Shown: in pieces, positions 1-18,926 of the stretch | How the letters are laid out: the number at the start of each line of letters is the position of its first letter | How positions within the stretch are numbered: position 1 is the first letter of the stretch | IMG/VR virus record: IMGVR_UViG_3300009605_000103 | Coordinates: 1 to 27,963 of that record | Direction: 5' to 3' (one strand) | Origin: a virus | Length of the DNA: 27,963 nucleotides | Notes under the pieces: generated by a model | Told to the model about the DNA's origin: nothing | The model's input: the letters and a program-made list of their open reading frames with translations, nothing else | Databases searched by the model: none | Position numbers and translations under genes: made by a program

Positions 1-1
1 C

Positions 2-529
2 GCCATCGACGGTGAACTATTAGCCAAACTGGTTTCAAGACTCAGAGGAAATAAGCACCTGCCCAAACCTATTTTGAAAAAAGTTGAACAGTACGATTAT
101 AGAGAATATGATGATGGAAGAGTGTATGTGTCCACTAGTGCCCAAAAAGTGTGGTGGCTCAACGGGGAACTACATCGCGAGGATGGACCTGCTTTGATAC
201 ATGCTAATGGATCAAAATGGTGGTATCTCAACGGAGAACGGCATCGCGAAGATGGTCCTGCTTTGATACATGCTGATGGAACAAAAGGTTGGTATCTCAA
301 CGGGGAACTACATCGCGAGGATGGGCCTGCTGTGATATATACTGATGGATCAAAGTTCTGGTATCTCAACGGGGAACTACATCGCGAGGATGGGCCTGCT
401 GAGATAGGGCCCGATGGAACAAAACAGTGGTGGCTCAACGGGAAACGACATCGTGAAGATGGTCCTGCTGTGATACGTGCCAATGGAAAAAAACAGTGGT
501 ATCTCAACGGGAAACTGCAGCAACAATGA
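2..529 (+). CDS. MORN-like repeat protein, 5' end outside window
   Basis: The reading frame is open from base 2, so the gene probably begins upstream; a TTG at 74 is only an internal possibility. After about 45 non-repeat residues come six 23-residue units built on the pattern W-x-L-N-G-(E/K)-x-H-R-E-D-G-P-A-x-I, then G-(S/T/K)-K. This resembles MORN-type or similar LNG-HR-DGPA repeats found in phages and giant viruses, which probably fold as stacked beta hairpins; the function is unknown. The last unit ends abruptly in a glutamine run and TGA at 527-529. A further W-F-L-N-G-K element lies in the same frame after the stop (575-592), so the gene has probably been shortened. The start of the next gene does not use this frame. 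I infer no catalytic role; a binding or surface role is only a guess. Confidence 0.7.
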   Translation, partial: AIDGELLAKLVSRLRGNKHLPKPILKKVEQYDYREYDDGRVYVSTSAQKVWWLNGELHREDGPALIHANGSKWWYLNGERHREDGPALIHADGTKGWYLNGELHREDGPAVIYTDGSKFWYLNGELHREDGPAEIGPDGTKQWWLNGKRHREDGPAVIRANGKKQWYLNGKLQQQ

Positions 530-614: not shown

Positions 615-1334
615 ATGAAGCTGCTGTTTGAAAGTTGGCGACGATATTTGAAAGAAGGCCGAGAACTAGAACAATATACGACCCTAATCTCCAGAGAAAT
701 AGTAAACGCTTTGAAAGATTCAGATGTCAAAGATGCTTTCAATCAAGCCAAACAAGCTTATTTTAAATTAGATATTGAACATATTTTGGATAATTTAGAA
801 TATGTCAAAGATGTCTATGTTAATATGTTGGAAGGAGATCTAGTTTATGCTCATGCAAAATACGAGTTTGACTTGGACGCAACAGAAGAACAAAGAAAAA
901 ATTCAGAAATTGTTGTGGATGTTATCTTGCCGATAGGTTATGAAAACTCAATATTTTCCGAATTGATTCCAGAGATTAAAGAATCATTGAGACACGAACT
1001 GGAACACAGCACGCAACCCACTGAAATGTTGATGAAGATTCAAAAAAAGATTCCTACGGGAGATGTTTGGAACACTCTTGAAAGCGCAGAAGCATATTTT
1101 ACCAACGAATCAGAAACAAAAGCTCATGTCGTTGGTATTTATAAGAAAGCAAAGATGTTTAAGGAACCCGCCGGCGAAGTATTAGATCAAGAGTTGATGA
1201 ATATTTATAGTACGGGATTACATTATGGATACACCGAAGAGGAACTGGGTCCGATAATGAGTAAGATTAGAGAATATTGGCGCTACTATATGCAGTCTCG
1301 CTTTCCTCACGCAGAGATTGACTGGGACAGATAA
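615..1334 (+). CDS. Capsid-tagged HExxH metallopeptidase-like protein
   Basis: This 239-residue protein is the first of ten starting with the shared tag; here MKLLFESWRRYLKE is followed by Gly, so a gp21-type cut after L-K-E (residue 14) is predicted. The start at 615 is chosen because the tag begins there and a GAGGAAAG ribosome site lies upstream; a longer frame from 477 only runs through old repeat DNA. A zinc-binding signature HELEH is at residues 127-131, and E167 in the segment SETKAHVVGIYKKAK is a plausible third ligand, as in gluzincin-type peptidases. The same two elements occur in the protein at 7888, so the two may be diverged paralogues. The substrate is unknown. No signal peptide or membrane segment is visible. 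Family assignment rests on motif only. Confidence 0.6.
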   Translation: MKLLFESWRRYLKEGRELEQYTTLISREIVNALKDSDVKDAFNQAKQAYFKLDIEHILDNLEYVKDVYVNMLEGDLVYAHAKYEFDLDATEEQRKNSEIVVDVILPIGYENSIFSELIPEIKESLRHELEHSTQPTEMLMKIQKKIPTGDVWNTLESAEAYFTNESETKAHVVGIYKKAKMFKEPAGEVLDQELMNIYSTGLHYGYTEEELGPIMSKIREYWRYYMQSRFPHAEIDWDR

Positions 1335-1335
1335 T

Positions 1336-2007
1336 ATGAAGTTGTTGTTTGAAAGCTGGCGAAAATTTCTAAGAGAGAATGCAATGGACGAAGTTCGCGC
1401 TTACTTGAACGAACTCGGTAGAAACATAGAAGATGTTAAATTGGAGCGAGACACAATACTGGCTTCTAACAAAGAAGATATAAAATTTTGGCTTAAAGAC
1501 AAAGTAAGACGAGAAGGTGAACCGACCGATCAAGAACAGATTGACCAGATTTGTGCTGATGGCGAGATAAAAAAACCAATCATAATTGATCTTGACGCAG
1601 ATTATACCGTTGAAGGTAGGCACAGATTGACGGCGGCTCTCAAGTGTAATCTGGATGTGCCTGTGATTATGATTTCTTCTCAAAAAGGACACCCGGTGGC
1701 CGAAGCGTCCGACGCTGTCGGATCAGGCCATCCACGACCAGCTAGTCTTCAATCTATTCCTGGCGCTTGGGAAATATTTGAAACAGGCGTTGGTGATTTA
1801 ATTAAAAACTTCCAAAATAGAGAGGATTTTGATAGTAAACTTTGGAATCTTTATAGAGCATCAGACATAACATATATACAGGCTAGTCAAATGATGTTTG
1901 ATATGATGGATAATAATTTATCAGATGACATTGATAATGCCTTACTTGATTTCATTACGAAACTAACAGGTCCGGACGACAATTCGCCCAAAGAGGAAAA
2001 TATATGA
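1336..2007 (+). CDS. Capsid-tagged ParB/sulfiredoxin-like protein
   Basis: The protein has 223 residues from the ATG at 1336, which gives the tag MKLLFESWRKFLRE with a predicted cut after L-R-E (residue 14); an in-frame TTG at 1318 is rejected. Residues 81-113 read as a ParB/sulfiredoxin core: a hydrophobic strand ending in D-L-D, then Y-T-V-E-G-R-H-R-L-T-A-A (90-101), then V-P-V-I-M-I. The G-x-H-R-x-x-A-A signature is the phosphate-binding loop of ParB, Srx and phage ParB-like nucleases. The C-terminal half is unassigned and helical. It ends in a TGA that overlaps the next ATG. ParB-like domains can bind CTP, cut DNA or act in transfer reactions, and the sequence does not say which applies. 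Confidence 0.6.
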   Translation: MKLLFESWRKFLRENAMDEVRAYLNELGRNIEDVKLERDTILASNKEDIKFWLKDKVRREGEPTDQEQIDQICADGEIKKPIIIDLDADYTVEGRHRLTAALKCNLDVPVIMISSQKGHPVAEASDAVGSGHPRPASLQSIPGAWEIFETGVGDLIKNFQNREDFDSKLWNLYRASDITYIQASQMMFDMMDNNLSDDIDNALLDFITKLTGPDDNSPKEENI

Positions 2008-2345
2008 AACTCCTATTTGAAAATTGGCGAGAGTTCTTGAAAGAAGAAACATATTATCACGGAGGCGGAAAAGACTTTTTATCTACTCGTATTGGAACAT
2101 TCTATTCAAAAGACAGAGTATACGCTGAAAAATATGCAGCACAACATAAAGATGGGCAAGTATCTGAAGTTGAAATTGATTTGTCTGAAGCAAGCGTTTA
2201 TCCCAAAGTTTTTTGGTGGCAAGAGTTTCAAGAAATTTGGCAACCACAGGAAATGTTTAAAGGATATGATATTGTTAAAGTTATAGAACCCAACGGAGAA
2301 GAGCCTTCGATTGTTGTGTTGAATCCTAAATTGGTGAGGAAATAA
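2004..2345 (+). CDS. Capsid-tagged ADP-ribosyltransferase-like small protein
   Basis: This 113-residue protein has the tag MKLLFENWREFLKE and a predicted cut after L-K-E at residue 14. The body then begins directly with Y-Y-H-G-G (17-21), followed by G-T-F-Y-S (31-35), A-E-K-Y-A (41-45) and a C-terminal G-Y-D-I-V with E-x-S-I-V-V-L-N-P (87-108). This order, Y-H-G strand, F-x-S strand, A-x-x-Y-A helix, G-Y-D and V-V-L-N-P ending, is what I expect of small ART-fold proteins with a PARP/diphtheria-type His. In T4 the internal head protein Alt is an ADP-ribosyltransferase injected with the DNA, so the role would fit. The catalytic Glu is uncertain, and it could be an inactive ART-like fold. The start overlaps the previous stop (ATGA). 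Confidence 0.5.
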   Translation: MKLLFENWREFLKEETYYHGGGKDFLSTRIGTFYSKDRVYAEKYAAQHKDGQVSEVEIDLSEASVYPKVFWWQEFQEIWQPQEMFKGYDIVKVIEPNGEEPSIVVLNPKLVRK

Positions 2346-2346
2346 G

Positions 2347-4587
2347 ATGAAACTCCTATTTGAAAACTGGCGAAAATACATAAACCTTCTCAACGAAGAA
2401 CAACTGCTTATAGAAGGCAGAATACAAGACGCAAAGAAGAAGTATCCCTGGTTAACCAAGAAAGGCCTGCTTGATATTCTCATTGAAAAGGATCCTTCTG
2501 GAAATCAAAAGTATCTTATACCGGCTGCACTTATCCTGGACAAAGAAATCAGCGAGAGACGCAGCGGAGGTGCGAAAGATGTTGGCAAGTTGGAAAACCT
2601 GCCGATAATGACACAACAAGATAATGAATTTAGTTCGGAAGGTATCGCGATGAAAGTCGCGAATCAAATTGAGAAGTATCATTTGTATAGCAAATACCTC
2701 GAAGGTGCCAATGCTGAGTTCAAAGATCTCCAAAAAGTACCAAATTTAGATACTTTGAACGCTGTTGTTCGTTATGGCGAAAGCCGAAAAAAGGAAAAAG
2801 ATGAAGAGAAGGCGAAAAAAGAACAACAAAAACAAGAAGCAATACAAAACTCCGAAATAATAATGAAAGACGACAATTTCTTGTTGGTTCGCCCACTTAC
2901 TACCGGCGCATCCTGCTATTGGGGCATGGGAACAAAGTGGTGTATTTCAGCGACACAGTCAGAGAACTATTTCAACAGTATTACCGCCGAAGGCAAAGGA
3001 TTCTATTTCCTTTTTATGAAGAACAAAAAGAATTTTTGGACCAGTTCTTATCGCCAATATCATAAGTTAGCTTTGGTTTATGGTGATCATGGTGAATTTG
3101 AGGAAGCTTATGATGCTGCAGATAATTCAATGGACAACGAGGAGGTCACAGAGATTATTGCAATGAACCTTCTTGGAGAAGACTTTGTTGACGCCTATAA
3201 ACTTGCTATTAATTATACTGAGTATATTCAAAGGTATGAAAAAGACCGAGACGTTCAGACACCACACTTGGAAGATGATTTTCGCGAAGAATATCCAGAA
3301 CAGCAGGCAGAGATATTGGCCACACTCGATAAACTTGGATTAGAACCCGACGACGATCTGGAAGAAGTTTGGGATAACGAAGTATTAGACATATGGAACA
3401 CTATTGATACTGAAGCACAACACCACTTTGAGATGAATCCTGCCGGCCCATCGGAAGAAGAGTACCAAAGGATTGAGGATGAGGCTGGATTACAACACGT
3501 CTATATTCACCGCGATTATGATGAGAATGAATACTGGAGTGGTGGTTTTGGGTTTGACTTTGGAGATTTAGATTTTGGCCCCAAGTTCCAACCTGAGGAT
3601 TTAGAGGATTTTGATTTAGAAGATGAAATGAGATCGCTGCTGGATGCTTATTACATTTATCCGGATTACTTGGAGGTTTATCAAAACGAAGTGAGAATAG
3701 ACATAAATCCAGACGAGTACGAGTCAGTGGGTATCGAAGGTTTTCGAAATTTTGTGGATTCCATGTCTAAAATTGATTCGGAATATGATAATATTCGCGA
3801 AGATTTAATCAAGTTATTCATTGAAGAAGGGGCTTTAGATATATCAGACGAACCTATTGGACAACTTAAAGCAAAACTCGCAGAGAAAGAGTTTAAGCAT
3901 TTCGTGGTTAGCGCCGAAGGAAGACGCGTAGAAATTTCTGTACAATTTGTTTATGAAAATATTACTATTTTCGATGAGGCAGCTAAAGAAATAATAGAGT
4001 TGATGGGGTTAGAGCATCTTGCGAAGTCTGGTACTGAAGACACCGGCGAGTGGAACCCGGATTGGATCGATCGTGTTATGGAGCATTACAAGGATATACA
4101 GAGAAAGATCGTATACTTCTTCAAGATTAAACTCATCAGTAGGGCGGACGACCTTCTTTATGATAAATTGGACGCTCTTATGGTCCGAGCCTATGCCGAA
4201 GCAGAGAAACAGCTGCAAATTCCAGGTATTGAAGCACCAGAAATAAAAAGGATGCTTCCAGCAACAGCATTCACATTTAATCCATACATGACCTCTGCTT
4301 CGCTCAAAGAAAAGAAAATCAAAACTCAGATGAGTGTTGAAGTAACTGGTGAATTGGATGAAACTCAGTCGGCAGTCATAGCAGAGTTTGTTGAGTACTT
4401 TGATGAGAACTATGATATTCTTTCTGAGGCAGTCAAAGAGGCAATAGACGAACTACTTAACAAGGCAGTTGTGAAAACACTTGAATCAAAAAAAGAAGAA
4501 CTCCCCGAGCGCGCCCGAGCCCTAGGCCTCGATGAAAACAAGAAGAGAAAAAAAGGAATAAAAATACTTTTGGGAAGAAGGCAATGA
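2347..4587 (+). CDS. Capsid-tagged large protein with GTKWC motif
   Basis: The protein has 746 residues and the tag MKLLFENWRKYI. Possible cuts follow L-N-E (residue 17) or L-I-E before Gly (residue 23). A charged, probably coiled-coil stretch at about 147-166 precedes a small domain at about 173-260 centred on Y-W-G-M-G-T-K-W-C (191-199), with a following N-Y-F and a G-F-Y-F-L-F strand. I have seen this G-x-G-T-x-W-C pattern in other phage proteins of unknown function. The next 200 residues are strongly acidic and aromatic; the last 180 are helical and end in a lysine/arginine-rich tail. Cys and Trp in the motif suggest a structural or active site, but I cannot assign a reaction. It starts one base after the previous stop and its own stop overlaps the next start. 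Confidence 0.55.
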   Translation: MKLLFENWRKYINLLNEEQLLIEGRIQDAKKKYPWLTKKGLLDILIEKDPSGNQKYLIPAALILDKEISERRSGGAKDVGKLENLPIMTQQDNEFSSEGIAMKVANQIEKYHLYSKYLEGANAEFKDLQKVPNLDTLNAVVRYGESRKKEKDEEKAKKEQQKQEAIQNSEIIMKDDNFLLVRPLTTGASCYWGMGTKWCISATQSENYFNSITAEGKGFYFLFMKNKKNFWTSSYRQYHKLALVYGDHGEFEEAYDAADNSMDNEEVTEIIAMNLLGEDFVDAYKLAINYTEYIQRYEKDRDVQTPHLEDDFREEYPEQQAEILATLDKLGLEPDDDLEEVWDNEVLDIWNTIDTEAQHHFEMNPAGPSEEEYQRIEDEAGLQHVYIHRDYDENEYWSGGFGFDFGDLDFGPKFQPEDLEDFDLEDEMRSLLDAYYIYPDYLEVYQNEVRIDINPDEYESVGIEGFRNFVDSMSKIDSEYDNIREDLIKLFIEEGALDISDEPIGQLKAKLAEKEFKHFVVSAEGRRVEISVQFVYENITIFDEAAKEIIELMGLEHLAKSGTEDTGEWNPDWIDRVMEHYKDIQRKIVYFFKIKLISRADDLLYDKLDALMVRAYAEAEKQLQIPGIEAPEIKRMLPATAFTFNPYMTSASLKEKKIKTQMSVEVTGELDETQSAVIAEFVEYFDENYDILSEAVKEAIDELLNKAVVKTLESKKEELPERARALGLDENKKRKKGIKILLGRRQ

Positions 4588-7097
4588 AGCTATTATTTGA
4601 AAATTGGCGAAAGTATATCGCAGAAGAAAAAGAACTAATACAAGAGTTCAAACAAGCAGACAAAGAAGTTCTGATGGCTGATAGTGATCGGTTTACCATT
4701 TCATATGAGATTGAGCTTCTTTCTAATAAATCAGCAGTGCTCGGCGGCGCCGAATCTGAACGTCCGAGTTTGGAAGAATATGCTAGCAATTATATAAGTT
4801 TTGATCATTTTTCTGAAGACGCAGGACAAAGAGATTTCGAAAGTTTTGTGGAGGACTCTCTTCTTGACGAGTATGATGCCACTGGTGATGGTTTGGTTGA
4901 TCGATATATTGCCGACGAGATTGCTCCGAATATGGGATATCCGCCCGATGAAGCAGCAAGTAACCAGATTGTAAAATTTGAAATCTCTGTTAGGAATTCA
5001 GATGACGGCCGGAAGTTATATGATACGGCGATTGAGAGTATTTCAAGAGATGGTTCTCCAGAAGCAAATGCTTTTATTGAGCTGTTGTTAAGCATCCCTG
5101 CGATTAAAGAAGAACTGGCAGAATTTACGGAAGTGAAAGCAGTTCAACTTGGATTGGATTTGGATCCTGAAGAGGAAACTGATAAGATTGTTCATATATT
5201 ATCAGGAATTGATAATGCTGAACTGTTTAGAAGATATGTTTTTGATCTTAAATCTGATATTTCGGGATTTCCACTGTGGCGACAGCGCGAAGATATGCTG
5301 ATTTCTTTGGAAGACTTTTTCGGATGGATCGAAATGGGAGATGAGTTCTCTGATGCGCTATTTGATGTCGATTCACTGCTTGAAGGAGAGATTTTGGAAT
5401 TAGACACGAGGTGGGGCGTGATGAACGATGCTTGGAATTTGTCAAGCAATTTTAAAGAGTCTGATTCCGAACATTTAAAAGAGATTGCTAGCATGGTTGA
5501 GCGCAAAGCCGAAACATATATGGAAGAAGAAGCCCAAAGCCAGTGGGAGGAATATCGCAGAGATCCCATCAGCTATCTAGCTGATATGGGTTTTGAAATT
5601 GAACATCGGTATGAGGAGGAATATGGCCATATTTATGACGAGTATGGCGATGAAGAGTTCGACGAGAGCAGCATGATAGGGCTTATGCAAAGATATCTTC
5701 CAAATTTTATGAACAAATATGCTCATCAATTGGATTATACACCGGATCCTACGTTGAGCCCAGATCCTCATGTTGAGTTTTCAATGTCAAATCCACCATA
5801 TATCGAAGGCCTGCAAGAATCTTTGGATTTCTTGGAATTATTTTTTGAAGATTATGATAATCAAGACAATTTTTATATGGATCGAAGAACCGGCCTTCAC
5901 ACCAACGTTGGTTATTTGGATGATGAAGGAAGATCAAACAAAGATTACAACTTAATGAAAGCATTGTTGTTTTTGAATCGTGATTTTGCGACAAAAGGCT
6001 TCGAGACACGCCAAGGAAGTAGTTGGGCCGGCCCCATCAAACAGACAGTTATTGAAGCAATCACAACACAGATAAGCAAAGAGGTTGCTCGTTATAAACC
6101 CTCCTCCAGACCCAATAGAGAATCAATATTAGGGAATTTTATTGAAAAGAACTTTGACATACTTGACAAAACTCTTTCCGATGTTGTTGAATATTCAACG
6201 AGGCATTCTGGCGGAAAGAATCTTGGATTTAATATCAAGTATATTGACAGTAGGGGATATGTCGAGTTTCGATATCCGGGTCACGATAACTTGGATTATG
6301 AAATAATGAAAAACGCTACATTATATTATGCTCATATTATTAAAGTCGCGACGGATCCAGAATACAAAAAAAATGAATATATAAAAAAATTGATTGGATT
6401 TATCAATAATCTAAAATATGTTGAGTATGAAAAAATAACCAGTTATGATGAAATTAAGGCTCTCAAACGAGGGACGTTGCTTACACTTCCTGTTACGCAC
6501 GATGCCATCGACGTAATGGACAGCCGCGAGCGTTTATTTGAACTTTATAAATATTTGACTTCCGAAGCAGAAAGAGAAATACATTGGCCAACGCCATCGG
6601 GTTATGATGCAAGAATTGATCAACGTGATCTTTGGCCGTCGTATTTTGTTTATAAAGGTATAAACACTAAGGCAAAATCTGTTATATTAGAACACATAAC
6701 TTGGACGCCGGGACAAAATCCACATTATGTGATTGCCGAAGTGGAAAAACCAATGATCTTTTTCGAGAGACAAATGCAAGAACAAACAAAAACTGGCTTA
6801 GGAATAAAAAACGCAGCAGTGGAAAAGCTTATTTTGGGTATGCACGATGTTCTTCGTAAAAAAGGGCAAATATCCTTCGAGGAAGTAGACGAATATATAA
6901 AAGAATCTCATGATATTTGGGATCTCAGAGATAAGCTTAAAACAATAAAATTCAATTTAGAACAGGGTTACTCATGGGCGGTAAGTGCAGAGGATGAAAA
7001 ATTGGCTGAGAAATATGCCGATATAGTGCTGTCATCGCCGCCCTCTTCAGAACAACAGGAGTTGCGACAGATGTTGAGGAAAAGAAGGACATCATGA
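4584..7097 (+). CDS. Capsid-tagged amidoligase-like large protein
   Basis: The protein has 837 residues and the tag MKLLFENWRKYIAE, with a predicted cut after I-A-E (residue 14), closest of all to the T4 internal protein ending F-I-A-E. Three elements match the amidoligase (COOH-NH2 ligase, glutamine-synthetase-fold) plan: S-Y-E-I-E-L (40-45), G-L-H-T-N-V (437-442) and G-Y-V-E-F-R (558-563), followed by an L-D-Y-E-I-M helix. These are the metal/ATP and substrate positions in that superfamily. A 390-residue acidic insert separates the first from the second, far longer than usual, and a further C-terminal domain (about 600-837) is unassigned. If active, it would join an amino group to a carboxyl group, perhaps on peptide or wall material; that is inference. 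ATGA overlap on both sides. Confidence 0.45.
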   Translation: MKLLFENWRKYIAEEKELIQEFKQADKEVLMADSDRFTISYEIELLSNKSAVLGGAESERPSLEEYASNYISFDHFSEDAGQRDFESFVEDSLLDEYDATGDGLVDRYIADEIAPNMGYPPDEAASNQIVKFEISVRNSDDGRKLYDTAIESISRDGSPEANAFIELLLSIPAIKEELAEFTEVKAVQLGLDLDPEEETDKIVHILSGIDNAELFRRYVFDLKSDISGFPLWRQREDMLISLEDFFGWIEMGDEFSDALFDVDSLLEGEILELDTRWGVMNDAWNLSSNFKESDSEHLKEIASMVERKAETYMEEEAQSQWEEYRRDPISYLADMGFEIEHRYEEEYGHIYDEYGDEEFDESSMIGLMQRYLPNFMNKYAHQLDYTPDPTLSPDPHVEFSMSNPPYIEGLQESLDFLELFFEDYDNQDNFYMDRRTGLHTNVGYLDDEGRSNKDYNLMKALLFLNRDFATKGFETRQGSSWAGPIKQTVIEAITTQISKEVARYKPSSRPNRESILGNFIEKNFDILDKTLSDVVEYSTRHSGGKNLGFNIKYIDSRGYVEFRYPGHDNLDYEIMKNATLYYAHIIKVATDPEYKKNEYIKKLIGFINNLKYVEYEKITSYDEIKALKRGTLLTLPVTHDAIDVMDSRERLFELYKYLTSEAEREIHWPTPSGYDARIDQRDLWPSYFVYKGINTKAKSVILEHITWTPGQNPHYVIAEVEKPMIFFERQMQEQTKTGLGIKNAAVEKLILGMHDVLRKKGQISFEEVDEYIKESHDIWDLRDKLKTIKFNLEQGYSWAVSAEDEKLAEKYADIVLSSPPSSEQQELRQMLRKRRTS

Positions 7098-7891
7098 TGA
7101 AGCTGTTGTTTGAAAATTGGAAGAAATATATAACAGAATTGCAGGATTTTGATTTCTCGACTCTTCAACTAAAAGACACTCTTGAACCAAACCTTTGGCA
7201 GAACGACGAATTGAATTCGCAGATTAGAGAGAAGTTAAAAGAAATAGCATTAGATTTTTGGGAAAAAACAGAGTTAAAAAATATTGATATTATTGATATA
7301 ATAGTAACCGGTTCAATAGCAAACTACAATTGGACAAAATATTCAGATATAGATTTGCATATTATTATTAATTTGGCTCAAGTAGATGACAACGTTGGTT
7401 TGGTTAATCGGTTCTTTAGGTATATGTCTTCTAGTTGGAATCGCATGCACAAGATTATGATCAAAGGTCATGAAGTTGAAATCTATGTTCAAGATGCCAA
7501 TGAGATACATGCTTCAACAGGAATGTATTCAGTGTTGAATGGTTATTGGACGGTCAAACCATCCAAGACAAAGGTGCAACTCGACAAAGAAGCGATCAGC
7601 AGGAAAGCAGAAGTGATGATGGAGAAGGTTGATGCTGCTGAAAAAATGTATGCTGCCGGCCAATATCAAGAAGCTCACGAAACTGCAGTCGAAATCAAGG
7701 AAAAGATTCGCAACATGAGAAGATGCGGCCTGACCGATGGAGGTGAGTTCTCGGCTGAGAATCTTGCGTTCAAGGTGCTAAGAAGAAATGGATACCTGGC
7801 AAAACTTTCTGAACTAAAGAACGATGCTTATGATTTAATGATGTCTCTGGATGGGGTTCGTTCATCGGCCATTAGGATAAGGATTGGATGA
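7097..7891 (+). CDS. Capsid-tagged Pol beta-type nucleotidyltransferase
   Basis: The protein has 264 residues. Two ATGs abut (7094 and 7097); the second is preferred because it gives the exact tag MKLLFENWKKYITE, with a predicted cut after I-T-E (14). The nucleotidyltransferase core is clear: V-T-G-S-I-A (70-75) followed by S-D-I-D-L-H (83-88), supplying G-S and the two catalytic Asp residues (84, 86). A third acid is probably E128 in H-E-V-E-I-Y. The C-terminal 110 residues are helical and basic, suited to binding nucleic acid or a protein partner. Members of this fold add nucleotides to RNA, small molecules or proteins (MNT/AMPylating types), and the target cannot be read here. The neighbouring CCA-type enzyme is a second nucleotidyltransferase in the same cassette. 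Confidence 0.75.
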   Translation: MKLLFENWKKYITELQDFDFSTLQLKDTLEPNLWQNDELNSQIREKLKEIALDFWEKTELKNIDIIDIIVTGSIANYNWTKYSDIDLHIIINLAQVDDNVGLVNRFFRYMSSSWNRMHKIMIKGHEVEIYVQDANEIHASTGMYSVLNGYWTVKPSKTKVQLDKEAISRKAEVMMEKVDAAEKMYAAGQYQEAHETAVEIKEKIRNMRRCGLTDGGEFSAENLAFKVLRRNGYLAKLSELKNDAYDLMMSLDGVRSSAIRIRIG

Positions 7892-8754
7892 AACTCCTAT
7901 TTGAAAACTGGCGGAAGTATTTGAAAGAGAGAAAAACAGATGTTCTTTATGAAAACATTACTGAATTTTTCTTAAAGTTCATTAGAGAACTGTCAAATTT
8001 TTATGATATTAAAGATTATAAGTGGGCCCTGGACCTGACTGATGAAGATGCTGGAGGCACGTTCGCTTACTTGTTTAAAACAAGACCAGAATCTGTGGAT
8101 GAGGAATTGTTCGAAGAATATCAAGCGATGACGCAGGATGAGACCATTATGTCTGATTTTGAGACATTTAAGGAGGCATTAACAAGATTCGAGGTAATGG
8201 TTGTTTGGGATCTTCGAGGCGGCGATGCGGCCGCAGACATGAGCACCGGAGGCCGCATGCGGTTAAGTGCTCCCCATATTGGCTTAAAAGAACAACAGTT
8301 TGATGAGTTCACAACGAAACAGATACATGCACAGATTCAACAAGCGATTTCTGAAGTTTCAGAAATTCTTGATCACGAACTTACTCATTATTTGAATGCG
8401 ATTAGGTCGGGACATAAACCATATAGAGCCCCTGGAGGACAAAAACAATTCAACCCAGACACTCAGGAATATATTGACTCCACTGAAGAAATACAAGCAA
8501 GGGTCATTGCAGCCATTAAATCGTTTAAGGATAGTGCTGTTTATAAAGATGGCGAATTTGTTGCAATGAGCCCTGAAGAATTTATGGAATGGTTCATCTA
8601 CTTTTACGGCCCGGGCAGTTGGGAAAGAACTTCGCCCAAATTAAGACAGAGAATATACAAGAGAGCACTCGACACAGAGAACGGGATATTTGCTAATTTG
8701 AAGAGACAATGGAAAAGGCAGAACCCGACTCCCGTTTTGGAGAGACATAAATGA
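7888..8754 (+). CDS. Capsid-tagged HExxH metallopeptidase-like protein (second copy)
   Basis: The protein has 288 residues and the tag MKLLFENWRKYLKE with a predicted cut after L-K-E (14). The zinc signature H-E-L-T-H is at residues 163-167, preceded by a hydrophobic helix (I-S-E-V-S-E-I-L-D). A downstream segment S-T-E-E-I-Q-A-R-V-I-A-A-I offers E200 or E201 as third ligand. The layout parallels the protein at 615 (HELEH, then S-E-T-K-A-H-V-V-G-I), so both probably belong to one phage peptidase-like family, with this one carrying a longer N-terminal region and an extra basic C-terminus. The substrate is unknown. Start and stop both overlap neighbours through ATGA, implying translational coupling. 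Confidence 0.6.
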   Translation: MKLLFENWRKYLKERKTDVLYENITEFFLKFIRELSNFYDIKDYKWALDLTDEDAGGTFAYLFKTRPESVDEELFEEYQAMTQDETIMSDFETFKEALTRFEVMVVWDLRGGDAAADMSTGGRMRLSAPHIGLKEQQFDEFTTKQIHAQIQQAISEVSEILDHELTHYLNAIRSGHKPYRAPGGQKQFNPDTQEYIDSTEEIQARVIAAIKSFKDSAVYKDGEFVAMSPEEFMEWFIYFYGPGSWERTSPKLRQRIYKRALDTENGIFANLKRQWKRQNPTPVLERHK

Positions 8755-9197
8755 AACTTCTATTTGAAAACTGGAGAAAGTTCTTGAATGAAATATCCCT
8801 TGGGACACCAACCAAAGATGTTTCATACACGGCTTTCGTACTAGATGATAATTCAAAACTTTTAGAATATGTTCCAGAAGGATGGAAAACTCTCGCACAC
8901 CATATGACAATTTTACCACCAGCAGAAATGAAGCGTCGTCTGCCTTCTCGTTGGCTGGATTATAACGGCTGTTTGAAAGTTGTTGGCCTTGCTCAAAATG
9001 ATATGGTCGTGACCGCTCGTGTTGATTTGGGAGACTTGCCAATGCCAATGAAAATATTAGGCCTACCACACATTACCATAGCGACAAACCCAGAAACGGG
9101 CGGCGAACCGCAAATGTCAAACGAACTAGTGGAAGAAGATTTTCAACCAATTGGTTCTTTTGAAGTGTGTGGGAAAGTGCAAGAGATTTTTAGATGA
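8751..9197 (+). CDS. Capsid-tagged 2H phosphoesterase-like protein
   Basis: The protein has 148 residues and the tag MKLLFENWRKFLNE with a predicted cut after L-N-E (14). Two H-x-T motifs, H-M-T at 51-53 and H-I-T at 107-109, sit about 56 residues apart, each on a hydrophobic strand, in a protein of the right size for the 2H phosphoesterase fold (LigT/2',5'-RNA ligase, cyclic phosphodiesterase, anti-CBASS Acb1). The first strand (S-Y-T-A-F-V-L) also fits. The 2H enzymes act on 2',5' or 2',3'-cyclic phosphates in RNA or on cyclic oligonucleotides. In this setting RNA end repair alongside the CCA-type enzyme, or removal of a defence signal, are both reasonable and unproven. ATGA overlaps on both sides. 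Confidence 0.65.
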   Translation: MKLLFENWRKFLNEISLGTPTKDVSYTAFVLDDNSKLLEYVPEGWKTLAHHMTILPPAEMKRRLPSRWLDYNGCLKVVGLAQNDMVVTARVDLGDLPMPMKILGLPHITIATNPETGGEPQMSNELVEEDFQPIGSFEVCGKVQEIFR

Positions 9198-10390
9198 AGC
9201 TTCTACTTGAAAATTGGTGGAAGTTCACAAGACTTCACGAAGCGATTGATCCAGCTACAATAGAGAAAATCCAATCTACTATTGAACAAGCCGGAGGAGA
9301 GAGTTATATAGTCGGCGGCGCTGTGAGAGACGAGTTGTTACCGGATACCCCTCCATCCAAAGATATTGACTTCTTGATAAGGAAGCTGCCACTAGATCAG
9401 ATTGCGACTGCCCTGACTCCTTTGGGAAAAGTTAGCTTGGTAGGCAAATCTTTTGGTGTTATTACTGCTATAATTGATGGAGAAGAATTTGACTTTGCTA
9501 TTCCAAGAATTGGCGAAGAAAAGACAGGAGAAAAGCACACAGATGTCGATGTCACGACAGATCCCAACGCCACAATAGAAGACGACTTAGGAAGAAGAGA
9601 TTTTACAATCAACGCCCTTGCCAAAGATTCTGCCGGCAATATCATAGATGTGTTCGGAGGACAAAAAGATTTACAAAACAAAACCATTAGGGCCGTTGGT
9701 GATCCAAATGAAAGGTTCTCAGAAGATCCGCTGAGAATGATGAGAGCGCTTCAGTTTGCTGTTCGTTTTGACTTTGACATTGAATCCGCTGCGCTCGCAG
9801 CGATTAGAAACAATATCGATAAAATCGACACCGTTGCTGCTGAAAGGGTTTTTATGGAGTTCAATAAGGCCTGGACAAAGGGTTCTGTTAATAGTGACAA
9901 GCTTGTTTCACTTCTTGAGGAGACTGGCATTGGAAGAAGGTTGTTTGGTGATGATTTTGATCCACAAATAGTCAGGATCGAGGGAACTCCCGAGGACAAA
10001 ATAAATGGAAACTTTGTTGCCTTCTTTCTAAACGGCGGTGATTTTAATTCTATGCGGCCAACAAACGCCATGATCAAGTACTTGGACATTTCCATAGCAG
10101 CTTCACGAGATGCCGGCGAGGTCTATGAATATGCCGTCGATCAGAAAGAAAAGATGCCATTGATTGCGAACGTTCTGAGACAACTTGGCTATTATCAGCA
10201 AGCAGAGAAAATAATGTCCGCTATTGATCTCCCATTAAAAGGATCTGAGTTGGAGATTGGTGGACAAGAACTTATGCAAATGGGCTTTAAGGGCAAAGAG
10301 ATAGGGCGGGCAGAAAAAGATGTTTTGTCTGCCATTCACAGAGGTGAGCTTGGAAATACTTATGATGAGATAGTGGGGTATTTAAAATGA
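9194..10390 (+). CDS. cca: Capsid-tagged CCA-adding/poly(A) polymerase-type enzyme
   Basis: The protein has 398 residues. The tag is the most divergent of the set (MKLLLENWWKFTRLHE, then Ala), with the predicted cut after L-H-E (16). The class II tRNA nucleotidyltransferase head is complete: G-G-A-V-R-D (41-46), D-I-D-F (57-60) with the two metal-binding Asp, G-R-R-D-F-T-I-N-A-L (133-142), and S-E-D-P-L-R-M-M-R-A-L-Q-F-A (176-189). Length is typical of bacterial CCA enzymes, though the tail domain after about 230 is weakly conserved. Such enzymes build or repair the 3' CCA end of tRNA from CTP and ATP; poly(A) polymerase shares the same motifs and cannot be excluded. A tagged, potentially virion-borne copy is unusual. 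ATGA overlaps tie it to both neighbours. Confidence 0.85.
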   Translation: MKLLLENWWKFTRLHEAIDPATIEKIQSTIEQAGGESYIVGGAVRDELLPDTPPSKDIDFLIRKLPLDQIATALTPLGKVSLVGKSFGVITAIIDGEEFDFAIPRIGEEKTGEKHTDVDVTTDPNATIEDDLGRRDFTINALAKDSAGNIIDVFGGQKDLQNKTIRAVGDPNERFSEDPLRMMRALQFAVRFDFDIESAALAAIRNNIDKIDTVAAERVFMEFNKAWTKGSVNSDKLVSLLEETGIGRRLFGDDFDPQIVRIEGTPEDKINGNFVAFFLNGGDFNSMRPTNAMIKYLDISIAASRDAGEVYEYAVDQKEKMPLIANVLRQLGYYQQAEKIMSAIDLPLKGSELEIGGQELMQMGFKGKEIGRAEKDVLSAIHRGELGNTYDEIVGYLK

Positions 10391-11247
10391 AATTGTTATT
10401 TGAAAACTGGAGAAAGTTTCTGAAGGAAGCAAACAACTTTACAGTTCTTTGTGAAAACCACAAGCAAGGTTTAATAACGGAAGAACAACTCTATAATAAA
10501 TGGGAACAAATGGTTATATTTGAAGCCTCTCAGGTTTTAAATGAAGGTTTATTGGACATTCTCAGGGGAGGATACGAGAAGGGAAAAGAGTTATTTACGA
10601 AAGCAGTTGAGAAAGTAGCATCTTTTTTCAAAAAACTTGTATTCCAAGCCTTAAAAATGATGTTAACGGCAAACGTTCAATTGGATAAGATTGCTGGAGT
10701 GTTAAAGAGCATCATGCAAAAGGTTGCAAAGTTTTGTTCAGCCCACAAAACACTTTGTAAGATTATCACAACTATTTTAGTTATGTTGGCAGTGACGGCA
10801 GTAATGGCTGGTTTGGCTGGTGAAGTAGAAGCTGCTATTAGCACTGGGGGATACACCGGTGAAGAAACTACTTTAAATGATACTGGACTTGATGCGATCA
10901 AAGGGTTTTTGTCTGTTGCGCAAGATGAATTCCCATCTGAAATAGGAGGCTCCCGGGAGTCGCGAATGTTCGCTCAAGCAGTTGAGTGGTTGGAACACGC
11001 TCAAGGAATGGACGAACTTGTTGACTTGAAAAACTCATCAGAAGAAGGCGCTGACATAATTCGGTGGGCCTATGAATCCATAAATGAGATGATAGACAGT
11101 GGAGAGATGGGGCGGTCGGACCTCCGCGAGCTTGCTGAAATTGGCGAACGGATTAGTGTTGAATCTGGTCGATTTACACGAACAATTCTCGGCGCGCCTG
11201 ATGAATTTTATGAAGGTCCAGTACAACTAGTTTCTCAACCAAGGTAG
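10387..11247 (+). CDS. Capsid-tagged protein with one membrane segment
   Basis: The protein has 286 residues and the tag MKLLFENWRKFLKE followed by Ala, giving the same L-K-E/A sequence that occurs at the likely cleavage site of the major capsid protein in this phage. A second possible cut, L-N-E/G, lies at residues 51-54. Residues 54-120 form amphipathic, lysine-rich helices; 123-146 are a hydrophobic helix rich in Ala, Val, Leu and Met, long enough to cross a membrane; the rest is acidic and helical. No enzyme motif is seen. A membrane-active or pore-forming ejection protein would fit, as would a toxin-like protein. It closes the tagged cassette: the next gene starts after the stop without overlap and lacks the tag. 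Confidence 0.6.
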   Translation: MKLLFENWRKFLKEANNFTVLCENHKQGLITEEQLYNKWEQMVIFEASQVLNEGLLDILRGGYEKGKELFTKAVEKVASFFKKLVFQALKMMLTANVQLDKIAGVLKSIMQKVAKFCSAHKTLCKIITTILVMLAVTAVMAGLAGEVEAAISTGGYTGEETTLNDTGLDAIKGFLSVAQDEFPSEIGGSRESRMFAQAVEWLEHAQGMDELVDLKNSSEEGADIIRWAYESINEMIDSGEMGRSDLRELAEIGERISVESGRFTRTILGAPDEFYEGPVQLVSQPR

Positions 11248-12200: not shown

Positions 12201-13775
12201 ATGAGTTATCAATTATCCAAAAAGGAATTAGTTCAAGAGATTGTAAAATCTGGGAAAGATCCAAACTATTTTATTAACAATTATGTTAGAATATCTCACC
12301 CTGTACGCGGTTTAATTCCCTTTAAAACATATGATTATCAAGAAGAGCTTTTAGAAAGTTTTAATGATCACAGATTTAATGTTATACTTAAGGCTCGTCA
12401 AATGGGCATTACGACAATAATGGCGGGTTATATTTCTTGGATGATGCTATTTCATCGAGATAAAAACATTCTCGTGATGGCAACCAAGTTTCAGACGGCT
12501 TCAACGCTGGTCAAAAAAGTGAAAGCGATTATTAAAGCATTGCCAAGCTGGATACGACTAACAAATATTTCAGTTGATAACAGGACATCTTTCGAATTGG
12601 GAAATGGATCTCAAATAAAAGCCGCTTCTACCGCGTTTGATGCCGGCCGTTCAGAAGCGTTATCTCTTCTCATTATTGATGAAGCTGCACACGTTGAAGG
12701 ACTAGATGAATTGTGGACAGGTTTGTCACCAACCATTTCAACTGGTGGTCGTTGTATTGTAGCTTCCACACCAAACGGTGTTGGAAACTGGTTCCATCAG
12801 ACATACACTGAGTCTAACTTAGGACTAAATTCATTCAGCAATGTTAAACTAATGTGGGATCGCCACCCCGATCGTGATCAAAAATGGTTTGATTCAGAAA
12901 CAAAGAACATGTCTAAGAGACAAATTGCACAAGAATATATGTGCAACTTTAATGCTTCCGGTGAAACCGTCATTCATCCCGATGATATTAAAAGAATCAA
13001 TGAAGAAATCTGTGAGCCCAAATATAAGACAGGGTTTGATAGAAATTTTTGGATTTGGAAAGAATACGATTCTGCCTGCACCTATCTTTTGTCTGCTGAT
13101 GTTGCCCGAGGAGATGGAAAGGACTATTCCGTTTTTCACATATTAAATCTCAACACAATGGAAATTGTTGCTGAGTATCAAGGAAAACCGACGCCCGATA
13201 TATATGCAGAATATGTATATAACGTCGGCAAAGAATATGGAAACTGCATGATTGTTGTCGAGAACAACAATATTGGATACACAGTCGTAGAGAAAATAAA
13301 AGATTTGGGATATACAAACGTATATCATTCAATCAAGTCAACACACGAATATATTGAACAATTTGCGACAGAAGGCAGGAACGATTGTGTTCCAGGATTC
13401 ACGACTTCTGGAAAAACTCGCCCAATGATTATTGCAAAATTGGAAGAATTTATTAGAAACAAGATAATTAAGATATATTCTCCTCGCCTTCTCAACGAAA
13501 TAAAGACCTTTGTATGGAACAACAATAAACCAGAAGCAATGCGAGGATATAACGATGACCTCATGATGGCCTTGGCAATCGCCTGCTGGGTGAGAGACAC
13601 TGCGCTAATTGTTAATCAGAAAGGTATAGAGTATTCTAAGGTTTTTTTGAATTCAATGAAAAAAGTCGACTATACTATGAATACGACAATCCCGGGAATG
13701 AAAGGGTATGTGCCACATCACAACAAAGAAAAACAAAAAGAAACACAGCAATATGCATGGATATATAAAGGATAG
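12201..13775 (+). CDS. gp17: Terminase large subunit (gp17-like)
   Basis: The protein has 524 residues and is the DNA-packaging motor and head-filling nuclease, acting at the portal vertex. The ATPase half shows an adenine-binding Y-D-Y-Q (44-47), a Walker A variant K-A-R-Q-M-G-I-T-T (64-72), Walker B L-L-I-I-D-E (156-161) and coupling motif A-S-T-P-N-G (188-193). The RNase-H-fold nuclease half shows D300 in S-A-D-V-A-R-G-D, E354 in V-V-E-N-N-N and D452/D453 in Y-N-D-D-L-M-M-A. In the Walker A the usual Lys of G-K-T is Ile, and a Lys stands at the first position instead, as in some other terminases. It is somewhat shorter than T4 gp17. No intein is present. The portal gene follows after two bases. 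Confidence 0.95.
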   Translation: MSYQLSKKELVQEIVKSGKDPNYFINNYVRISHPVRGLIPFKTYDYQEELLESFNDHRFNVILKARQMGITTIMAGYISWMMLFHRDKNILVMATKFQTASTLVKKVKAIIKALPSWIRLTNISVDNRTSFELGNGSQIKAASTAFDAGRSEALSLLIIDEAAHVEGLDELWTGLSPTISTGGRCIVASTPNGVGNWFHQTYTESNLGLNSFSNVKLMWDRHPDRDQKWFDSETKNMSKRQIAQEYMCNFNASGETVIHPDDIKRINEEICEPKYKTGFDRNFWIWKEYDSACTYLLSADVARGDGKDYSVFHILNLNTMEIVAEYQGKPTPDIYAEYVYNVGKEYGNCMIVVENNNIGYTVVEKIKDLGYTNVYHSIKSTHEYIEQFATEGRNDCVPGFTTSGKTRPMIIAKLEEFIRNKIIKIYSPRLLNEIKTFVWNNNKPEAMRGYNDDLMMALAIACWVRDTALIVNQKGIEYSKVFLNSMKKVDYTMNTTIPGMKGYVPHHNKEKQKETQQYAWIYKG

Positions 13776-13777: not shown

Positions 13778-15712
13778 ATGGCAAGTATAAATAATCCCAA
13801 AAACCCAGATTCTAGGTTATTTAAAAAATTAACAAGGGTTTTTTCTGGGCCTATTATTGACTATCGTGCTCAAACGATTCGAAAGTATCGCCGGCATCAA
13901 TTAGATAAGTTTGCGAATACGTTTAAATCGTTGAGTGGTCAACCTTTTAAGCGGACCGCTCACAATCCATTTGAGAATCTTCAAACAAGCATGATTGCAA
14001 ATCAGAATCGCGTGGAGCGATATGCTGATTTTGATCAAATGGAATATGAACCGATTATTAATTCGGCAATGGACATATATGCAGATGAAATGACCACGTC
14101 TTCTGATTTACAGCCTTTGTTGAAAATCGATTGTCCCAATGAAGAAATCAAAGCGGTGCTGCACTCTCTGTATCATAATATAATGAACATTGAATTCAAT
14201 CTTTTTGGTTGGTGTCGAACGATGTGCAAATATGGTGACATGTTTCTTTATATTGACGTCAATGAAGATTATGGCGTCAAAAATGTCATTGCTTTACCCT
14301 ATGATCAAGTAGAAAGGATCGAAGGAGAAGATAAGACGAATCCAAACTATGTTCAATTTCAGTGGAATTCCGGTGGGTTGACTTTTGAGAACTGGCAAGT
14401 TGCGCACATTCGTATTTTGGGAAATGATAAGTATGCTCCATATGGAACATCAGTTTTGGAAGGTGCCCGGCGTATCTGGCGCCAACTGGTTCTTCTAGAA
14501 GATGCAATGATGGCTTATCGTATTGTTCGTTCGCCAGAACGTCGTGTGTTTTACATTGACACCGGCAATGTTCCTCCTCAAGATATTGAACAGTTTATGC
14601 AAAAAACAATCACCAATATGAAGAGAAACCAATTGGTTGATCCCACTACTGGTCGTGTGGATTTGCGATATAATCCTCTTTCTGTTGAAGAAGATTATTT
14701 CATTCCGGTGAGAGCCGGCATCAATTCTAGAGTTGAAACTCTTCCAGGTGGTTCTTATACTGGAGATATTGATGATGTCAAATATTTAAAGGACAAATTG
14801 TTTGCTGCTTTGAAGATTCCTCAATCGTATTTGTTTCGTGGAGAAGGAGCAGAAGAAGACAAAACAACGTTGGCTCAAAAAGATATTCGCTTTGCCAGAA
14901 CTATTCAGAGATTGCAAAGATCAGTTGTGTCAGAGCTTGAGAAGATCGGCATTGTTCACTTATATTCGTTGGGATATCGAACAAACGATTTAATATCTTT
15001 TAAACTTAAGTTGAACAATCCTTCGAGAATTGCTGAGATTCAAGAATTAGAGCATTGGAAAACAAAGTTTGATACGGCTGGGTCAGCCACTGAAGGTTAT
15101 TTCAGCAAGCGTTGGGTTTCAGAACACATATTTAGTCTTTCAGAAGAAGAATTCCTGCGCAACCAGAGAGAACAGTTTTATGATCGTAAATATGCTGCTG
15201 CTCTTGAAGCTGCAGCTGCCGGCGAAGAGGAGATGGAAGGTGGTCTCGGCGCCGGCGAAATGGGCGAATTAGGCGATGACTTCGGAGGAGAAGAATTCGG
15301 TGGAGAAGAGTTCGGAGAAGAAGAACTTGGCGGTGAGGAAGAGCTTGGCGGTGAGGAAGAGCTTGCCGGCGAAGAAGAAACACTCTTGGCCGCTCCAGGC
15401 CATCGAGATAGTGGTACTGGTTATGTAACTCCGGGTTCAAAAGGAAAAGTATATTTTCCGGTTAAAAGTGATAAAAGGGGTATAGGAGCAAACCACAGGC
15501 GAACAAAAGGTTCTTGGTCAGACGAGACTGCTCGTCCTACTACAAGAAACGTTTGGAAAGCTCCGAGTTTAATTAATCTAAGCGAAAGTCTTTCTGGGGA
15601 CAACGAATCTAATTATAATAATGAAGAACAGCTTCTAATTGAAGTAAATCAAGGTATTAGAGATTTGATTGCAGAATTGGAGAAAAAAGATAATGTCGAA
15701 GAAACACAATAA
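13778..15712 (+). CDS. gp20: Portal protein (gp20-like) with acidic C-terminal extension
   Basis: The protein has 644 residues and forms the dodecameric ring at the head vertex through which DNA passes; in T4 it also starts prohead assembly. Its identity follows from position after gp17 and from gp20-like segments, such as the E-P-I-I-N-S-A-M-D-I-Y-A-D-E stretch near residue 90 and the G-T-S-V-L-E-G-A-R region followed by the R-S-P-E-R-R-V-F-Y-I-D-T-G-N stretch. It exceeds the T4 protein by about 120 residues, mostly at the C-terminus: an Ala/Glu helix, a Gly/Glu low-complexity tract (about residues 482-536), then a basic linker and a helical tail. The tail contains N-E-E-Q-L-L-I-E, the same octapeptide found after the tag in the protein at 2347. 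A TATAAATA string lies at its start codons (13786-13793), possibly by chance. Confidence 0.93.
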   Translation: MASINNPKNPDSRLFKKLTRVFSGPIIDYRAQTIRKYRRHQLDKFANTFKSLSGQPFKRTAHNPFENLQTSMIANQNRVERYADFDQMEYEPIINSAMDIYADEMTTSSDLQPLLKIDCPNEEIKAVLHSLYHNIMNIEFNLFGWCRTMCKYGDMFLYIDVNEDYGVKNVIALPYDQVERIEGEDKTNPNYVQFQWNSGGLTFENWQVAHIRILGNDKYAPYGTSVLEGARRIWRQLVLLEDAMMAYRIVRSPERRVFYIDTGNVPPQDIEQFMQKTITNMKRNQLVDPTTGRVDLRYNPLSVEEDYFIPVRAGINSRVETLPGGSYTGDIDDVKYLKDKLFAALKIPQSYLFRGEGAEEDKTTLAQKDIRFARTIQRLQRSVVSELEKIGIVHLYSLGYRTNDLISFKLKLNNPSRIAEIQELEHWKTKFDTAGSATEGYFSKRWVSEHIFSLSEEEFLRNQREQFYDRKYAAALEAAAAGEEEMEGGLGAGEMGELGDDFGGEEFGGEEFGEEELGGEEELGGEEELAGEEETLLAAPGHRDSGTGYVTPGSKGKVYFPVKSDKRGIGANHRRTKGSWSDETARPTTRNVWKAPSLINLSESLSGDNESNYNNEEQLLIEVNQGIRDLIAELEKKDNVEETQ

Positions 15713-17435: not shown

Positions 17436-18047
17436 ATGAACAAGAAAGTATTACTCAGAGAATATTATGAATTATGCGAAGGTGGTATTTGCCAAGATTA
17501 TTTAACTGAAGCTGAAAAGCGAATGGTTAATAACGATGGTACTGTCTTTCTTACCGGTATTGTACAGTGTGCCGGCAAAAAGAACGGCAACGGCCGAATA
17601 TATTCTGAAAACATTCTAAAACGAGAAGTCAATAACTATCAAAAGATCATAAACGAGAACAGAGCACTGGGAGAATTAGATCATCCAGAAGATTCAGTTG
17701 TTAATCTTCGCAATGCCTCACACATGATGAAGAGATTGTGGTGGGATGGCAGTAACGTCATGGGAAAGATTCAGTGTTTGAACACTCCATCTGGTAACAT
17801 TCTGATATCGCTTGCCAATTCTGGTGTTTCACTGGGTATTTCTTCACGAGGGTTGGGTTCTGTCACAGAAGGTCAAGATGGAACGATTGTTGAAGACGAT
17901 TTTCAGTTAATCTGTTTTGATATTGTGTCTGAGCCCTCGACGACAAATGCATATTTGAATCTTTCGGAGAGCAGACAAAAAACATTGTGGACAAAAGCAG
18001 ATCGAATTAATCGAGCGCTATATAGCATATTACATGTGTTAACATAA
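17436..18047 (+). CDS. gp21: Prohead core serine protease (gp21-like)
   Basis: The protein has 203 residues. It is the maturation protease of T4-type heads: inside the prohead it cuts scaffold, major capsid protein and internal proteins after (L/I)-x-E, then digests itself. The herpes-assemblin-like fold is indicated by G-E-L-D-H-P (79-84, catalytic H83), G-I-S-S-R-G-L-G-S (134-142, catalytic Ser 136 or 137) and C-F-D-I-V-S-E-P (160-167, probable D162). An N-terminal L-T-E/A (24-27) is a candidate self-processing site. It is the enzyme predicted to remove the tags of the cassette at 615-11247. The length is close to T4 gp21. An AGGAGG site follows its stop, serving the next gene. Confidence 0.93.
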   Translation: MNKKVLLREYYELCEGGICQDYLTEAEKRMVNNDGTVFLTGIVQCAGKKNGNGRIYSENILKREVNNYQKIINENRALGELDHPEDSVVNLRNASHMMKRLWWDGSNVMGKIQCLNTPSGNILISLANSGVSLGISSRGLGSVTEGQDGTIVEDDFQLICFDIVSEPSTTNAYLNLSESRQKTLWTKADRINRALYSILHVLT

Positions 18048-18542: not shown

Positions 18543-18926
18543 ATGAAAACAAACGAATTCAAAAAGATTCTCAAACCACTAATCAAACAATGTATCAAAG
18601 AAGTCATCTTTGAAGAAGGTGTTCTTTCCGGAATTATTAGTGAAGTAATGAAAGGCGTCAATGCTGCGCCGGTTGTTAGAGAACAGAGAGAACAAAAGGT
18701 TGCCAGTAAACCAACCAATGGGCATGCCAAAAAACAATTGCAAGAACAAAAAAAGAAAATGTTGGATGCGGTTGGGAGAGGCTCTTTTAATGGTATAGAC
18801 ATATTTGAGGGAACAAAACCATTGACAGAAAGTAATCAGCAATCTCCATTGGCAAATATTGAACCTGGAGATGCCGGCGTAGATATTAGTGGAATGTTTA
18901 ATTCCAATTGGAGTAAGTTAATTTAG
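18543..18926 (+). CDS. Small head-cluster protein, possible prohead core component
   Basis: The protein has 127 residues. The N-terminus MKTNEFKKILKPLIKQCIKE is an amphipathic, basic helix with an I-K-E at 18-20 and I-F-E at 22-24, both potential gp21 sites. The middle is Gln/Lys/Glu-rich and probably coiled. The C-terminal 35 residues (P-L-T-E-S-N-Q-Q then G-V-D-I-S-G-M-F-N-S-N-W-S-K-L-I) look like a conserved binding motif. From memory, similar small proteins sit beside gp21 in marine T4-type phages. A scaffold or core role is inferred; T4 gp67/gp68 are functional candidates but no clear similarity is visible. Confidence 0.6.
   Translation: MKTNEFKKILKPLIKQCIKEVIFEEGVLSGIISEVMKGVNAAPVVREQREQKVASKPTNGHAKKQLQEQKKKMLDAVGRGSFNGIDIFEGTKPLTESNQQSPLANIEPGDAGVDISGMFNSNWSKLI

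Follow-up and report, generated by a model that had tools for sequence, protein, structure and literature searches.

A shared N-terminal tag on unrelated proteins of an uncultured virus resembles the T4 capsid-targeting sequence

The virus record IMGVR_UViG_3300009605_000103, which derives from an uncultured, probably marine phage, was analysed over its complete length of 27,963 bases (hereafter the window). At positions 615-11247 it holds ten adjoining forward-strand genes, each overlapping the next by 1-4 bases or separated from it by 1 base, whose products open with MKLLFENWRKxLxE or a near form, the x before L being F or Y. We refer to this opening as tag A. A first-pass annotation of the window had pointed out the shared opening at ten starts, with Trp at position 8 throughout, and had listed for each gene an (L/I)xE tripeptide within residues 12-17; the list was correct, and the opening was borne out as follows. 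A DNA pattern for MK(L/F)(L/F)FExW matches exactly at nine of the ten starts and, written backwards, nowhere in the window; the tenth start, at 9194, reads MKLLLENWW. W8 occurs in all ten genes, given a start of gene 6 at 7097 (the list of open reading frames (ORFs) has 7094, with one extra Met). The tripeptide occupies residues 12-14 in eight of the ten, residues 15-17 in gene 4 and residues 14-16 in gene 9. The genes are:

615-1334, + strand: tagged gene 1, 239 aa, MKLLFESWRRYLKE; HExxH at residue 127, no Pfam match
1336-2007, + strand: tagged gene 2, 223 aa, MKLLFESWRKFLRE; weak matches only (phrog_7527, E 0.0015; ParB-like phrog_1033, E 0.085)
2004-2345, + strand: tagged gene 3, 113 aa, MKLLFENWREFLKE; no family match
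2347-4587, + strand: tagged gene 4, 746 aa, MKLLFENWRKYINLLNE; putative cut site displaced by 3; phrog_17056, E 3.9e-12
4584-7097, + strand: tagged gene 5, 837 aa, MKLLFENWRKYIAE; no significant family match
7097-7891, + strand: tagged gene 6, 264 aa, MKLLFENWKKYITE; nucleotidyltransferase domain (PF01909, E 6e-5; phrog_36119, E 4e-48)
7888-8754, + strand: tagged gene 7, 288 aa, MKLLFENWRKYLKE; HExxH at residue 163
8751-9197, + strand: tagged gene 8, 148 aa, MKLLFENWRKFLNE; two HxT motifs, predicted 2H-phosphoesterase-like fold
9194-10390, + strand: tagged gene 9, 398 aa, MKLLLENWWKFTRLHE; tRNA (CCA-type) nucleotidyltransferase (PF01743, E 2e-25; phrog_2244, E 9e-58)
10387-11247, + strand: tagged gene 10, 286 aa, MKLLFENWRKFLKE; hydrophobic stretch

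The description of this cassette as one of ten genes holds within the window, but the full run is longer. A 62 kb viral contig (G044) contains the whole window at positions 34369-62331, with 99.989% identity over the full length, and there 14 consecutive genes are tagged (31151-45615). The second and fourth of these (31680 and 33641) are paralogues, with 86% DNA identity over 519 bases, so the 14 genes are not all mutually unrelated. The end of the fourth one opens the window:

1-529, + strand: 3′ end of a further tagged gene, whose start lies outside the window (G044:33641-34897, begins MKLIFENWRKFLNEQ); C-terminal WYLNGxxHREDGPA repeats

These repeats are arranged in tandem at the C-terminus of the tagged protein (window 1-529); this gene and its paralogue lie within G044:31680-34897.

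Three other origins of the shared starts were rejected. Among the 1,696 start codons of the window that are followed by an open stretch of 14 codons, the ten tagged starts score 7-13 of 13 identities to MKLLFENWRKYLKE and the next best scores only 5, which excludes chance. Duplication of one gene is ruled out for the ten window genes because their bodies, taken without the first 20 residues, are mutually unrelated (best blastp E 0.8), as the first-pass annotation had also noted in stating that the proteins diverge past the tag. An origin at the DNA level was rejected on the basis of a codon comparison: across the ten genes, codons 2-9 of the tag show 131 synonymous versus 42 nonsynonymous differing pairs, and codons 20-27 of the same genes show 7 versus 341. 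Since the differences within the tag are mostly synonymous, conservation acts on the protein and not on the DNA. Scans of the window for promoters (55 found, shuffle mean 50.1), terminators (18 found, shuffle mean 12.8) and TATAAATA (4 found, mean 1.5; none upstream of the cassette on the cassette strand) were uninformative.

Tag A is not confined to this virus. Its DNA pattern was found in at least 118 IMG/VR stretches, and the reversed pattern gave 32 in the whole collection. (Counts from the scans with the tag-A, tag-B and random patterns refer to the matches listed, and are hence lower bounds.) A slightly stricter form of the pattern had no match in genome_contigs, which comprises bacterial and archaeal genomes, and tag A, as a short query, found none among 50,697 phage records. 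From 166 tag-A matches, one of which (9194) was added by hand, we obtained 155 ORFs of at least 60 aa and from these 121 non-redundant viral ORFs. An alignment of 116 of the 121 (alignment A1) has the consensus MKLLFENWRKYLxE, with almost no conservation behind it. The search pattern imposed residues 1-6 and 8 only, so that the conservation of W8 is not independent. Positions that were not selected are nevertheless kept: R9 in 110, Y or F at residue 11 in 111 and E14 in 98 of the 121 ORFs.

The position of the tripeptide is informative. In 100 of the 121 ORFs, the first residue of an (L/I)xE falls at 10-17 (shuffle mean 15, maximum 26). Of the 34 ORFs in which it is missing at residue 12, 18 have it further along, at 13-17, compared with a mean of 3.6 and at most 10 over 2,000 shuffles; all 18 have Y, F or H as residue 11. 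The other 16 divide equally into those with V or M replacing L/I at residue 12 (8) and those with neither (8). With a longer linker, (L/I)xE thus shifts by 1-5 residues, and the positions of W8 and residue 11 stay fixed.

These properties invite comparison with the capsid-targeting sequence (CTS) of the T4 internal proteins, since tag A too is a short N-terminal leader that ends in (L/I)xE and is carried by unrelated proteins. The T4 leader MKTYQEFIAE, read from the T4 genome, aligns such that Y4 corresponds to W8, F7 to Y/F11, I8 to L/I12 and E10 to E14. According to the available part of PMC9026906, mutagenesis of T4 IPIII assigned leader residues 4 and 7 to targeting and residues 8 and 10 to processing. 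Both positions that match the targeting residues are conserved in the tag, namely W8, which the pattern demands, and Y/F11, kept in 111 of the 121 ORFs. The implied core motif, [WFY]xx[FY][LIVM]xE, selects two of 203 T4 ORFs when sought near the N-terminus, and these are IPII and IPIII; it is found there in 4 of 1,104 ORFs of random-pattern loci. It is also kept by 33 of 84 homologues outside the strict tag-A form (shuffle mean 0.35), a class that mixes near-variants of tag A with other leaders, and the shortest of the leaders that keep it include MNKQWKNFIKE.

Downstream of the cassette, the window encodes the proteins expected of a T4-type head, including the protease that would cut such a leader:

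12201-13775, + strand: terminase large subunit, gp17-type (phrog_2, E 3.7e-55)
13778-15712, + strand: portal protein, gp20-type (phrog_213, E 1e-70)
17436-18047, + strand: prohead protease, gp21-type, proposed cutter of the tag (phrog_207, E 2.5e-56)
21116-22114, + strand: probable scaffold/core protein at the gp22 position, proposed docking partner (from position and relatives, not from a family match)
22148-23965, + strand: major capsid protein, gp23-type (phrog_138, E 4.8e-73)

The propeptide of the window's gp23 probably ends in LLKE, before an A. All 17 related records have LxE at the end of this propeptide, as LL(K/R)E in 16 and as LTE in the remaining one (L143). By eye, the propeptide end LLENQAKQLLKE, again followed by A, resembles the tag.

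A second leader, MKITKxQLKQIIKEEL (tag B), adjoins gp21 and replaces tag A on related bodies. At least 161 non-redundant ORFs carry it; in 149 of them the first (L/I)xE is at residues 12-14, and the hydrophobic residues 8, 11 and 12 of tag B are in register with those of tag A. Two pairs of proteins, one member with tag A and the other with tag B, have a body in common that begins just past the tags, with 67% over 57 residues in the better pair. G044 has six genes with this second leader (MKITKTQLKQIIKEEL or similar), one of them directly after gp21, and tag-B-type genes adjoin gp21 in the window and in two related loci (L135 and L139). Searched against phage isolates, tag B gave one weak tag-B-like match, from the uncultured LR756508 (E 2; short query). 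Two genes of the window belong here:

18060-18500, + strand: gene with a tag-B-type leader, MKITEKQLNQIIQEE, directly 3′ of gp21
18543-18926, + strand: small protein near gp21, MKTNEFKKILKPLIKQCIKE; kept in related head modules, N-terminus resembling tag B

The window and 13 of 13 related modules in which gp21 was located (L128, L129, L134-L142, L144 and L145) have, downstream of gp21, a small protein of the form MKKSELKKxLKPLIKECIKE...EEGLLSxVVSEVVKG, with an N-terminus similar to tag B. This small protein may be a prohead core protein and a source of tag B.

If the tags are substrates of gp21, they should accompany this protease. We searched for gp21 and gp23 in 50 of the 55 tag-A contigs of at least 45 kb, including all 12 fetched ones of at least 130 kb, and both proteins are encoded in all 12. 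Of 20 tag-B contigs, chosen among the matches listed and including all 14 there of at least 130 kb, 18 have gp21, among them each of the 14. Counting both tags, and among the matches listed, gp21 thus accompanies a tag in 26 of 26 contigs that reach 130 kb. The controls comprised reversed-pattern contigs (the four that reach 130 kb), random-pattern contigs (the five listed ones of this size), one contig of 104 kb and one of 123 kb, and 39 of 40 further random-pattern loci. The excess of gp21 over controls has a one-sided Fisher p of 0.0097 for tag A and 0.0005 for tags A and B pooled. Because the controls were not matched for habitat, this co-occurrence supports a link between tag and protease but does not prove it.

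The tagged proteins themselves are diverse. Those of the window include a tRNA nucleotidyltransferase, a second nucleotidyltransferase, two HExxH proteins, a protein with a 2H-phosphoesterase-like fold, and several to which no function is assigned. Among the 116 aligned tagged proteins, a Pfam tally in which 25 of 38 families are listed has five protein kinase and three Nudix matches, as well as NT5C, HAD-type, HD, exonuclease and GDSL matches. Relatives of gene 6 in Molly, Lak and other large phages align, among the matches listed, only from query residue 15-23 onwards, and their N-termini differ; for one homologue, L461, the stretch read falls upstream of the annotated start and is uninformative. 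In Maribacter phage Molly_1 (L456), two different ORFs, one of them the gene 6 relative, begin MNLK(T/S)LVE(T/S)(D/N)K, which is possibly another lineage-specific leader. Gene 7 has no match in phage records at E 0.01. Members of the gene 8 family share the tag and differ in linker length; the structural model has a low-confidence tag and linker followed by a confident domain, and the leader is predicted to be helical. The fold match of this domain is modest (best E 2.8e-3; CNPase-type, TM 0.50-0.60 by query length, 10-12% identity). Three relatives of gene 8 (L472, L473 and L488) have an extra conserved C-terminal segment, PVxFxKxLxxRxxxxxxIKxIIMxKFNKPE, which the window gene lacks. An assignment of gene 3 as an ADP-ribosyltransferase, suggested by a motif, was unsupported (poor model, mean pLDDT 54.5; no family match).

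Taken together, the sequence evidence and the analogy to T4 make it quite probable that tag A is a T4-type capsid-targeting propeptide with an unusually large and partly enzymatic cargo, which would be packed into the head, cut by gp21 and injected. The first-pass annotation had proposed such a head-cargo system, and the proposal gains support from the protein-level conservation, the floating (L/I)xE, the fit to the functional residues of T4, the presence of gp21 and gp23 in the window and in all 12 large tagged contigs, and the absence of the stricter tag from genome_contigs. As the label looks like a removable ticket for entry into the head, the phage probably carries the tagged proteins and injects them. 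With the steps taken from T4, we infer docking on gp22, cleavage, packaging and injection, as well as a role for each cargo protein. The leader would be made as an N-terminal helix and would attach its protein to the prohead's scaffold core during assembly, with the residues around W8 and Y/F11 responsible for targeting. Closure of the shell would trap the docked proteins, gp21 would cleave after (L/I)xE and thereby free them inside the head, and they would leave with the DNA into the next host. The tag would then be a plug-in label on unrelated proteins, several of which are enzymes that would probably act within minutes of the start of infection. It also seems reasonably likely that, in a large lineage of uncultured gp21/gp23 phages, interchangeable labels (A, B and lineage-specific ones) form a general address code for the virion interior, with which each phage loads at least a dozen proteins, many being enzymes.

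Several observations weigh against this interpretation. Even a relaxed (L/I/V/M)xE is absent from residues 10-17 in 13 of the 121 ORFs, and one cassette gene (G044:33049) has no (L/I)xE near its tag. Of 106 sites, 28 are followed by E and just 15 by A, whereas in gp23 this residue is mostly A. The leader and the T4 CTS have only the seven-residue core motif in common, a likeness that may stem from convergence as well as from common descent, and 4 of the 255 ORFs in reversed-pattern loci also have the motif near the N-terminus. Some cargo proteins have homologues that lack a tag; one such Nudix-like ORF lies in the same contig. A late-promoter signal was looked for upstream of the cassette and none was found. 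Furthermore, gp21 is common in the controls too (7 of 13 of at least 130 kb, one of the seven being weak, E 1.6e-9). The first-pass annotation had asked whether the tag occurs only alongside gp21. It does so in the 12 contigs of at least 130 kb but not in the tagged contigs overall: these include fragments, and gp21 was found in 17 of 50 and gp23 likewise in 17 of 50, with no match to either in a tagged contig of 122 kb (also a fragment).

Some of the same facts could be explained differently. The tag might dock proteins on the prohead core and be cut, with the proteins then serving in the head or its assembly instead of being delivered as working enzymes. In favour of this idea, the available part of PMC9026906 describes T4 IPIII mutants as slower in head assembly, and tag-B-type genes sit among head genes; the unrelated bodies, which include tRNA nucleotidyltransferase, Nudix, protein kinase, HD and exonuclease proteins, have no evident role in assembly, and we regard the idea as improbable. 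Alternatively, the leader could be a targeting or docking helix for another place, such as the membrane, the replication site or the tail, that gp21 never cuts and of which (L/I)xE is simply a part. A helical leader is indeed predicted, and both tags have hydrophobic residues in identical register. However, a helix motif should hold a fixed spacing, and the shift of (L/I)xE by 1-5 residues relative to W8 and residue 11 speaks against it, as does gp21 in 26 of 26 large contigs with tag A or B (among the matches listed) versus 7 of 13 controls; we would give such a helix only a slim chance. Lastly, the shared start could be a nucleic-acid element, either a translation leader or a recombination site that helps genes to shuffle, and not a peptide signal. 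The genes leave almost no room between them (they overlap by 1-4 bases or lie 1 base apart), and common 5′ ends would favour shuffling, but the predominance of synonymous differences in the tag codons (131 versus 42 nonsynonymous) leaves this explanation with almost no credit.

If tag A is indeed a capsid-targeting propeptide, its nearest counterparts are T4 IPII and IPIII, whose CTS is cut by gp21. Both systems have a short N-terminal leader on otherwise different proteins, with aromatic or hydrophobic targeting positions followed by (L/I)xE, in phages that encode gp21- and gp23-type proteins. In contrast to T4, the leader here has 14-20 residues and a conserved LLFEN before W8, 14 tagged genes form one run with several recognisable enzymes, a second, interchangeable leader exists, and the present analysis knows the system from uncultured viruses only. 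The head ejection proteins of phiKZ and SPN3US likewise have removable N-terminal propeptides that a gp21-type protease cuts after Glu, but these are mostly longer than 100 residues, with a phiKZ site of S/A-x-E, as far as the available parts of PMC5694885 and PMC9026906 describe them; our leader is short and its site is (L/I)xE. Polyvalent proteins of phages and conjugative elements resemble the cassette in being a conflict-related set of domains deployed by phages, but according to the available part of PMC5512222 they fuse many domains in one polypeptide, whereas here the domains are in separate genes with individual tags. Judged by gp23, Flavobacterium phage immuto is one of the closest isolates. 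It has an identical order of head genes and repeated N-termini of its own (MENFDLKKFLVENKLT-type and MKKSQLRQIIKE-type), but the DNA pattern of tag A has no match in it even with two mismatches allowed. A third repeated N-terminus in immuto (NC_055915; L127, L314-L319) is MKKQILSEQFxRMQxLAGIITES, and its gene directly after gp21 begins MENNFDIHKWQAKFLKES.

The first-pass annotation knew of no described T4-type cassette of this size and enzymatic variety. The principle is known, since the available part of PMC3012670 already describes the internal proteins of T-even phages as a highly diverse set with only the conserved CTS in common. What appears to be new is the tag families and their exchange, the size of the cassette, the number and nature of the cargo proteins, and the spread in uncultured phages. 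The strings MKLLFENW, MKLLFESW, LLFENWR and KLLFENW were absent from the full-text literature searched (open-licence papers, main text), and titles and abstract openings of related open-licence literature describe no such tag.

How an infection proceeds in its first minutes is shaped by what a phage injects with its DNA, and such proteins are difficult to identify by sequence. Should the tag be a label for head entry, injected proteins would become predictable in uncultured phages, and if the labels are an address code, reading them in metagenomes would list injected effectors directly, with more than 100 different tagged ORFs already at hand. The tagged kinase, Nudix, nucleotidyltransferase, HD, HExxH and functionally unassigned proteins would make up a directly testable list of candidates for early takeover or counter-defence. 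The tags would also provide new handles for loading enzymes into T4-type heads.

Elsewhere in the window, two direct repeats of 67 bases that are 97% identical lie at 25256-25403, within a Lys/Thr-rich ORF.

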